Positions 43,697 through 46,600 of a stretch of DNA of 64,000 bases are shown piece after piece. The stretch's first letter is position 1. Each line of letters opens with the position of its first letter. This DNA comes from Branchiostoma floridae. Lineage: Eukaryota; Chordata; Leptocardii; Amphioxiformes; Branchiostomatidae. The notes beneath the pieces were generated by a model. It saw only the letters and a program-made list of their open reading frames with translations. It made no database searches and was not told the origin of the DNA. The stretch lies in NCBI RefSeq assembly GCF_000003815.2, contig NC_049981.1, positions 18,399,041-18,463,040 on the forward strand, read 5' to 3'. The position numbers and the translations under genes are program-made.

Positions 43697-46600
43697 CTAC
43701 CTTGCCAGAGAAACCTGCCATACACGGATTAGGTTATCGGTGTAGCCTGCAAACAGAGTCTGGCCATCAGCTGACCAGGCCAGAGAGATGCACTGGGGCG
43801 GTCGGGCCTTCGGACTCGTGGAGATGATCTCTGGCCGCAGCTCGTCCACGATGATTTTACCTTCCAGATCCTGGAACACAGTGGGATACATGTTCATCGG
43901 GGACCACCTTACTCATCAGTAATAACATAGAACTGCATATCTTGCATCCTCATAATTGCAGGACATTGTCCACACAAAGTATGTTCAGACTTGTCTTAAT
44001 CACTGGATTACAAGTGCATTCACTGGAAACAACATAACTGTTACATATGTGTACAGAAGAAGGGGGATGCCATAAGGGGGCAGCTAACTCCTGGTTCCAA
44101 TTAGTCGGTAACTGATAGACCCTGTTTCAACCTTGGATAGAGCATCTTGGTAGGTGCTGCACCCATCCTTCAGAAGGGACCAATTTTCCATGCGAGAGCG
44201 ATGCATTCAGCATGTTACAGGAGAAGGACTAGCTCTCTGTGAAAAATATACCCTGCTACAGAAACAGCAGTGAAAGTTGCTGCCCTGTGTGCCAATAAGG
44301 CACTTCTAGGGTCTGAACAGAAGAACAAACGATAAAGAATGAAAGCTCCTTACCCAGATCTTGATGGTAGGGCCAGTGGCAGCACACAGCCAGTAGCGGT
44401 TGGGGCTGAAGCACAAGGCATTGATCTCGTCGGTGCCATCCAGGGTGTACAGATGCTTCCCCTCATTCAGGTCCCACAGCATGGCATTGCTGTCCTGTAT
44501 GCAAAGAACAGGCATGGCTGTTTAAGCTTTCAGTAGCTACATAAATGGGTCTACACATGGTCTATTGAAAGCACAACATTGGAATAGGGAGGTTCAAACT
44601 GTGGATGTACAGCTAAATGCCCTGTTGGTACAAGATTTAAAGGTGAAGGCCCTGACTTGCTAACAGTTCTCGACCATACTTCATACATGTCCTGAACATG
44701 TAGGTTTGCATGACAATGCACCATAGAGTTTCCAGGGCCTTCACCTTTGCCATTTTACTGTGCATGCACAGTTGAAGTACCATGAACCTCAGTTAATGAG
44801 CCCAACAGACCCAATGTGAAGTGAGGAGTTCCATTACCTTGCCTCCAGAAGCACACAGGGAGCCATCAGGGGACACTGTCACAGCATTGAGATAACCCAT
44901 ATGTCCGATGTGGTTTGTCTTCAACTTGCAGTTGGTCAGGTTCCACACCTTGACCAGCTTGTCCCAGCCACAGGACACGATGATGGGGTTCTGGTTGTTT
45001 GGGGAGAACCTGACACAGGACGTCCACTCAGTGTGTCCATCCTCCTGTAATACACAGCCAAACAACATCAACAAAAGAACTCAACAAGTATGTACAGTAG
45101 CCTTGTGGTTGGGGTTATTGCCTAGGGATCTGAAGGTCCTGGGATTGTTTTGATCATTATAGAAGTAATTATTGTACACATCTTGCATCCTCATAATTGC
45201 AGGACATTGTCAACACAACAGGTTCAGACTGGTCTTAATCACTGGACGTCTTGTGTACAAAAATCATACTTGGCAGCCCAACGGATGTAAGCTTGCCAAT
45301 TATCAGTATGACCATTGAGAGAGACTGGTTCTAAGTCTTCAAAAATTTGCATTTTCGTGTTTTTAATTTTCATTATTACATTTTGATGATGGGCAGGCTA
45401 TTACAAGAGGTAAAAGGTTCTGTATTTGGGCTTACAGAGCTTGTACTCATTGTTCAAAAAACAGTTATACAATGCAAACAAAATTCTTTTCTGGTGGAAA
45501 TGACTAAATATTACTTTTAGAGACTAACTTTTAAGATACATAGTGGCACTGAACTTTTTATGTTTGTTTTGTATGTCAACAAGGATATGGTATGAAAACA
45601 GCAGTGAGGTAATAATGGTATCCCTGACCTGGATGGTGTACTTGCAGACTCCCAGGGTGTTCCACAGCTTGATGGTCTTGTCGCGGGATCCTGACACAAT
45701 CTGACGGTTGTCAGCAGAAAAGGCAACACTCAGGACATCCTTGGTGTGGCCGACGAACCGTCGAGTGGTGGTCGACCTGCAAAAGATAGACACTTTCTAA
45801 TCATATCCACTAAATACAAGGGACTTCAATAGTAGGGAAAGGGAAGGTCCTCATCAGTGTGTATGGTGTCTACAGATGCTTCAGAGAGCAAAAGGGTAAA
45901 CTAAAATCATTGGACCATGCAACTCAGAAAACATGGTACTGACAACCACCAACTTTCATAACACCAGTCTTCAAGAGGAAAACTTGTTTCGGATCATAAG
46001 CCAGTGCACAGTTTGAACTGCATATGAACTAGGTCAAAGGTGAACGATCCCCTTATTAACTGTTTTTGTTTGGACAATGCTTGATACCAAATCTGTTTTG
46101 TTTATTATTTCAGAGGCCTTCATCTATGATATTTTAGTTTTTACCCAAACTATATCACACTGTGCATGTGCGATTCAAACTGTGAACCACTGCTTTAGCC
46201 TTATTCCAGAGATGCCTTACGTGTTGAGATCCCACAGGCGGAGGGTGTGATCCCAGGATCCAGAGAGGGCAAACTGACCATCGGACGAGATGACCACATC
46301 CGAGACAAAGTGGGAGTGACCATTCAAGCACTTGTGTTGGACGCCGTAGTTGTTCTCATCACGAGTCAGCTTCCAGACAATGATGGAGTGATCTGTATAC
46401 ATAATGCCACAGATTATCATTATGAACATAATGTAAGTTGGGAATAAGACAAAGTCATTATTTCAGTACTACCTGTCATATTTTAGGCTAGATCAGAAGT
46501 ACAAGAATTGTTGATTGTTGTGTTTCTGCACTTGTCATGTAAGTACTCCGAATTTTGATCCCCCTCTCTACATATACTCTCTTAATCAAGTTAAATGAGT

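Follow-up and report, generated by a model that had tools for sequence, protein, structure and literature searches.

Two short minus-strand segments in introns 3 and 5 of the RACK1 gene of the lancelet Branchiostoma floridae are very probably, as far as their letters can tell, a pair of real box C/D snoRNA genes that work like SNORD96. We consider it highly likely that they are functional paralogs of the SNORD96 type and guide methylation of 5.8S rRNA. The sequence itself, the boxes, the host gene, an island of similarity between the two introns, and the in-register alignment of one copy with the Rfam family model are all observed in the 64,000-nt stretch of DNA analyzed here (the window).

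Intronic snoRNAs are released by exonuclease trimming, and 15.5K, Nop56, Nop58, and fibrillarin are the core proteins of the C/D class. In the lancelet, each unit would be freed from its spliced intron by such trimming down to the C/D core, this core would be bound by 15.5K/Nop56/Nop58/fibrillarin, and the guide adjoining box D would target, for 2'-O-methylation, the G of 5.8S that corresponds to human G75. The kink-turn would be of the standard kind, with a U-A pair at C6-D1 and a box D that reads AUGA, and the absence of the D' guide segment of the Rfam SNORD96 consensus would make this a single-guide snoRNA. From the observed features we infer expression, processing, snoRNP assembly, methylation, and common descent with human SNORD96A.

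The two units in the introns of RACK1

The initial annotation had described two minus-strand copies in RACK1 introns 5 and 3, each with a C-like box GTGATTA, a D' box CTGA, a 13-base guide, and a box D written ATGA. Both copies are found there with these parts (Table 1). In the spliced gene model, which has five introns, copy A falls within intron 3 (45628-45045) and copy B within intron 5 (44353-43871), and the ATGA common to both copies is read directly in the sequence. The 317-aa spliced product matches RACK1 chains in the PDB (E about 1e-191), and the best of these chains, which are presumably vertebrate, reach 639-631 bits vs 555 bits for chain 4v6w/6xu6. Entry 6XU6 is a Drosophila ribosome according to PMC13228274.

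Table 1. Positions in the window of the RACK1 gene, the two snoRNA copies, and their parts.
Feature	Position	Strand	Location or basis
RACK1 host gene	43697..47089	(-)	spliced frame 317 aa, GT-AG introns; PDB matches
RACK1 coding exons (n=6)	47089-46978, 46392-46221, 45776-45629, 45044-44838, 44494-44354, 43870-43697	(-)	
snoRNA copy A, boxes and terminal stem	45186..45248	(-)	intron 3
Copy A box C, GTGATTA (position 6 T, not G)	45236..45242	(-)	sequence
Copy A box D', CTGA	45224..45227	(-)	sequence
Copy A probable box C', GTGTTGA	45210..45216	(-)	sequence; aligned to UGuUGaU of RF00055
Copy A guide ATGTCCTGCAATT	45195..45207	(-)	sequence; RF00055 alignment
Copy A box D, ATGA	45191..45194	(-)	sequence; A1 can pair with box C U6
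Copy A extended external stem (TTGTACAC / GTGTACAA and neighbors)	45169..45264	(-)	duplex -17.3 kcal/mol
snoRNA copy B, boxes and terminal stem	43945..44009	(-)	intron 5
Copy B box C, GTGATTA	43997..44003	(-)	sequence
Copy B box D', CTGA	43985..43988	(-)	sequence
Copy B probable box C', GTGTGGA	43969..43975	(-)	sequence
Copy B guide ATGTCCTGCAATT	43954..43966	(-)	sequence
Copy B box D, ATGA	43950..43953	(-)	sequence; A1 can pair with box C U6
Copy B external stem (CTTGTAATCC / GGATGCAAG and neighbors)	43928..44025	(-)	duplex -14.9 kcal/mol

The span from box C to box D is 52 nt in copy A and 54 nt in copy B, and from the end of box D to the last base of the intron there are 146 and 79 nt, respectively. 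The guide and box D are identical between the copies while the 5' strand of the stem differs; a terminal stem is present in both, and the C' box is weak in both. In copy A only 8 nt separate box C from D', which is too short for a D' guide.

When the five RACK1 introns are compared with each other, a single strong similarity emerges, i.e. the snoRNA island (70 nt, 91.4% identity, E 1e-22), while the next-best match is a 12-mer (E 0.11-0.13). Across the 513 Mb of the genome, the pattern C box-D'-guide-D occurs at 3 sites, 2 of them the RACK1 copies, and the reversed-pattern control yields 0. We rejected the third site (L031) as a third copy, as it has no terminal stem by eye. The guide 13-mer alone occurs 21 times in the genome vs 15 for its reversed control, an insignificant excess; a C box at most 110 nt upstream and ATGA or CTGA directly behind the guide are found at 2 of the 21 sites, the RACK1 copies, and the other 19 have neither. 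With 3 pattern sites genome-wide and neither box at those 19 sites, a dispersed repeat is rejected as far as tested.

The window holds 7 C/D-like box pairs with a stem, both copies included. In 20 mononucleotide block shuffles of the window their number averages 3.25 and ranges from 0 to 7, so box pairs taken alone are near chance. Short motifs alone are thus within chance, while the combined pattern together with the intron island is more than chance. A canonical C/D-like pair elsewhere on the minus strand (59947-59862; ATGATGA ... CTGA, 4-pair stem, 86 nt) is within these chance numbers and has no Rfam match above cut-off. By eye, it is flanked by reading frames of fibronectin-III / NDNF-like appearance and is near a retroelement-like tail.

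Both copies can also form external stems beyond the terminal one, for which the support is modest. Random 5' flanks, drawn from RACK1 introns 1, 2, and 4, pair as well as the native flank or better in 32 of 2000 draws for copy A and 78 of 2000 for copy B. After swapping the flanks, the 5' flank of A with the 3' flank of B gives -8.8 kcal/mol, which equals the random mean, while the 5' flank of B with the 3' flank of A gives -14.5 kcal/mol, as good as native B. Beyond the TCC adjoining box C, copies A and B have little likeness in their 5' flanks, and the alignment of these two paralogs contains no compensatory pair.

SNORD96 likeness and the box C-box D pair

The initial annotation had called the copies SNORD96-like and proposed a search with the Rfam SNORD96 model (RF00055). 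In a lax Rfam scan (laxest filters on 141 nt, 4227 families), copy A scores 14.8 bits against a gathering cut-off of 43 bits, and RF00055 is absent from the matches of copy B at E <=10. Nonetheless, copy A aligns over the full model (1-85) with the boxes and the 5.8S guide in register; its E-value of 2.8 over 4227 families corresponds, by division, to about 7e-4 for RF00055 alone. The likeness holds for the guide, the D+5 geometry, and the box order of copy A, all of which align over RF00055, and not for the score, which misses the gathering cut-off.

U54, another C/D family, reaches 15.3 bits on copy A, slightly above SNORD96, so the score alone is not diagnostic of family for this copy, and it is the aligned guide that identifies it. 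The SNORD96 D-box guide CUGCAAUU, adjoining box D, is present in register in copy A and with the same letters in copy B. The best match of copy B is TtnuCD34 from Tetrahymena (16.0 bits, cut-off 80, E 0.66), a model whose end, CUGCAAUC-CUGA, is a similar guide. At default thresholds the Rfam scan calls no snoRNA at either RACK1 copy, and a search of the genome with RF00055, which scored 50 of its 133608 first-look candidates, gives no match. Within the window, Rfam exceeds a family cut-off only at a histone 3' UTR stem-loop (25253-25207, minus strand, 34.5 bits).

Compared with SNORD96A and RF00055, the lancelet units share the RACK1 host, the D guide, the box order, the CAGUGAU start, and the GAGG end. 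They differ from the consensus in box C (GUGAUUA, consensus GUGAUGA) and box D (AUGA, consensus CUGA), and from human SNORD96A in being two. Furthermore, the second (D') guide region of RF00055 is absent from copy A, which lacks 23 positions of the model between box C and D', and therefore only the D guide is left. The missing segment would be the large-subunit guide, which would make the lancelet unit a 5.8S-only guide. PMC8053127 describes SnoR39BY of Arabidopsis as a guide for two sites, 25S G814 and 5.8S G79, and PMC2780460 tabulates snR39b/snR39BY as counterparts of Neurospora CD47, the guide for 26S Gm785. The lancelet unit probably addresses the site equivalent to G79, but has no room for the 25S guide that SnoR39BY also carries; moreover, Arabidopsis SnoR39BYa lies in a polycistronic cluster (PMC8053127), unlike the lancelet units.

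The shared ATGA had been regarded as unusual and as a possible sign of a variant kink-turn. In the C/D kink-turn, position 6 of box C pairs with position 1 of box D. Both lancelet copies have U-A here in place of the usual G-C and keep the sheared G-A and U-U pairs. The boxes depart from the strict RUGAUGA/CUGA consensus, and the capacity for a kink-turn with stem I is present, as one change in each box restores the Watson-Crick pair. A variant is thus not needed to explain the ATGA; we reject a new kink-turn type, as the two box changes compensate each other, and predict an ordinary kink-turn because C6-D1 is a compensated U-A.

Similar changes have been reported elsewhere. The nucleomorph snoRNAs GtNM-R12-14 of cryptophytes carry double changes at exactly these positions, which section 19 of PMC6461891 calls the 3' nucleotide of box C and the 5' nucleotide of box D; their AUGAUU with AUGA is compensated in the same way, in other organisms and with other predicted targets. 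Archaeal single mutants at C6 or D1 bind L7 less, while the double mutant recovers L7 binding and folding (Kuhn 2002, as reported in PMC6461891), and a small fraction of Dictyostelium D boxes read AUGA according to PMC8817022. The lancelet copies would bring a naturally occurring case of a compensated C6-D1 pair from an animal, and the current Rfam SNORD96 model gives a case of this type a score under its cut-off.

The guide and its probable 5.8S site

The base at D+5 (C45199 in copy A, and its counterpart in copy B) lies opposite the G of 5.8S AATTG, which we take, from human numbering and 5.8S letters, to be the equivalent of human G75. Against a metazoan-type 5.8S, with target letters in part taken from a primer in PMC13228274, the guide forms 12 contiguous pairs. 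The initial annotation had described 13 bases antisense to 5.8S; the 13-base guide is present, and by the letters of Drosophila 5.8S, for which that primer implies GCAGGACAC, the pairing is probably 12, because the A with which the guide begins would stand opposite C. Drosophila 5.8S carries Gm74 with a named guide, snoRNA:Me5.8S-G74 (PMC13228274), and the site is probably the same one, as the numbering suggests.

Since the genome's own 5.8S was not found in its readable sequence, we infer the target in lancelet 5.8S, where the G would stand in the context AATTGCAGG. A genome search with RF00002 (39 of 10579 candidates scored) returned one degenerate site at 30.8 bits vs a cut-off of 42; this 5.8S-like site (L022, reverse strand, contig C7) is possibly an rDNA pseudogene. 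A two-block pattern for 5.8S gives 0 sites, and a 21-mer search allowing 3 mismatches at most gives 8 sites vs 14 in its control. An 18S motif occurs at 9 sites, all 9 of which match eukaryotic SSU, with no 5.8S motif near them in readable letters. Four 18S 3' ends (L039, L041, L042, and L043) differ by one letter (GTCGTTAC), and the 7 kb retrieved there contain no 5.8S motif; these are possible diverged rDNA copies.

RACK1 as host and rival explanations

Mammalian Rack1 is described in PMC3941584 as carrying U95 in its first intron and U96A in its second, which bears out RACK1 as the host of the human-type SNORD96A. The parallel with human had been drawn for the RACK1 introns as such; it stands for the host gene and not evidently for the intron, which is intron 2 in PMC3941584 vs introns 3 and 5 here. 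A host in common with human suggests that the association is older than vertebrates, as the initial annotation proposed. The introns differ, however, and a snoRNA can pass from one broadly expressed host to another, so the shared host is no more than suggestive of descent, and independent entry is a live alternative. Methylation of the 5.8S site would itself be older than vertebrates, because Drosophila has Gm74 and Arabidopsis G79, provided that both correspond to this site, as their numbering suggests.

What the locus adds is the same host gene, RACK1, for a probable 5.8S guide in a nonvertebrate chordate; among the titles and abstract openings listed from an open-license library, none shows a lancelet RACK1 snoRNA. 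The case could help to ask if a snoRNA remains in its host through descent or enters favored hosts anew. Neither this point nor the compensated pair alters the basic picture of C/D snoRNAs, and the locus most likely holds an ordinary snoRNA pair.

A separate arrival, i.e. a 5.8S-guide snoRNA that entered RACK1 in the lancelet lineage on its own because RACK1, like ribosomal protein genes, is broadly expressed, would make the shared host a convergence. The difference in intron number fits this, and so may the position of U95, which is in RACK1 intron 1 in PMC3941584 and is listed in GNB2L1 intron 6 of chicken in PMC2653536, although the two numberings may differ. Intronic positions of snoRNAs are also generally unconserved: Hoeppner and Poole (PMC3511168) report that ancient snoRNAs did not ancestrally lie in their introns and that their data are best fitted by mobility between widely expressed hosts. 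They also mention archaeal sR11 as a functional counterpart of SNORD96 with limited sequence similarity. On the other hand, one guide specificity is found in one gene in two lineages, and the duplication within RACK1 shows that a snoRNA can change introns without leaving its host. We regard a separate arrival as the less likely reading and find the shared host suggestive of a descent in which the snoRNA changed introns within RACK1, a kind of movement that the duplication inside the gene illustrates.

Other rivals concern the units themselves. That real snoRNAs methylate two neighboring 5.8S nucleotides is doubtful: U followed by AUGA gives UAUGA, and thus a second register, in both copies, and a non-C first base of box D' with a non-C guide end allows two sites according to PMC5389607, where yeast U18, with a D' AUGA preceded by U, methylates two neighbors. 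But the U18 C' box has an extra nucleotide that the lancelet C box lacks, and the 4-nt register here has a full U-A pair. Decay, whether of both copies or with one as a nonfunctional duplicate and the ATGA box as a loss of function, is quite improbable. Both boxes are off consensus, there is no D' guide, Rfam scores the units poorly, and the identity of the copies could stem from recent duplication without selection; yet the two deviations compensate and are the same in both copies, the guide and box D are unchanged while the 5' stem strand differs, and each copy keeps a stem. A chance match, i.e. an intronic repeat with a snoRNA-like look, is very hard to credit, for although the guide 13-mer and box pairs are each near chance frequency, the combined pattern is confined to three sites in 513 Mb (control 0), the guide exactly adjoins D, and the D+5 base stands opposite G. 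We would offer only as a long shot the combination in which a lancelet kink-turn rewired from G-C to U-A goes with a lancelet-specific, two-register UAUGA methylation of the 5.8S G and the neighboring C, by a guide that has been in RACK1 since the chordate ancestor and moved between introns.

The remaining RACK1 introns (1, 2, and 4) were searched for a relative of SNORD95 and gave only sub-cut-off family matches, none named SNORD95. Two introns without a recognized snoRNA contain inverted repeats, in intron 4 (44639-44654 / 44733-44748, 16 nt, perfect) and in intron 2 (46004-46029 / 46162-46187, 26 nt at 81%). Downstream of RACK1, a long minus-strand hairpin (43361-43455) with near-perfect arms tagcctccatagcaggctctttggg ... 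ccaaagagcctgctatggaggcta resembles a small inverted-repeat element. On the other side, a gene that we take to encode a PP2A-like phosphatase catalytic subunit has its apparent start, by eye, at plus-strand position 47499. It stands head to head with RACK1, whose start at 47089 (minus strand) is ~410 bp away, and the two genes perhaps have a common promoter region.
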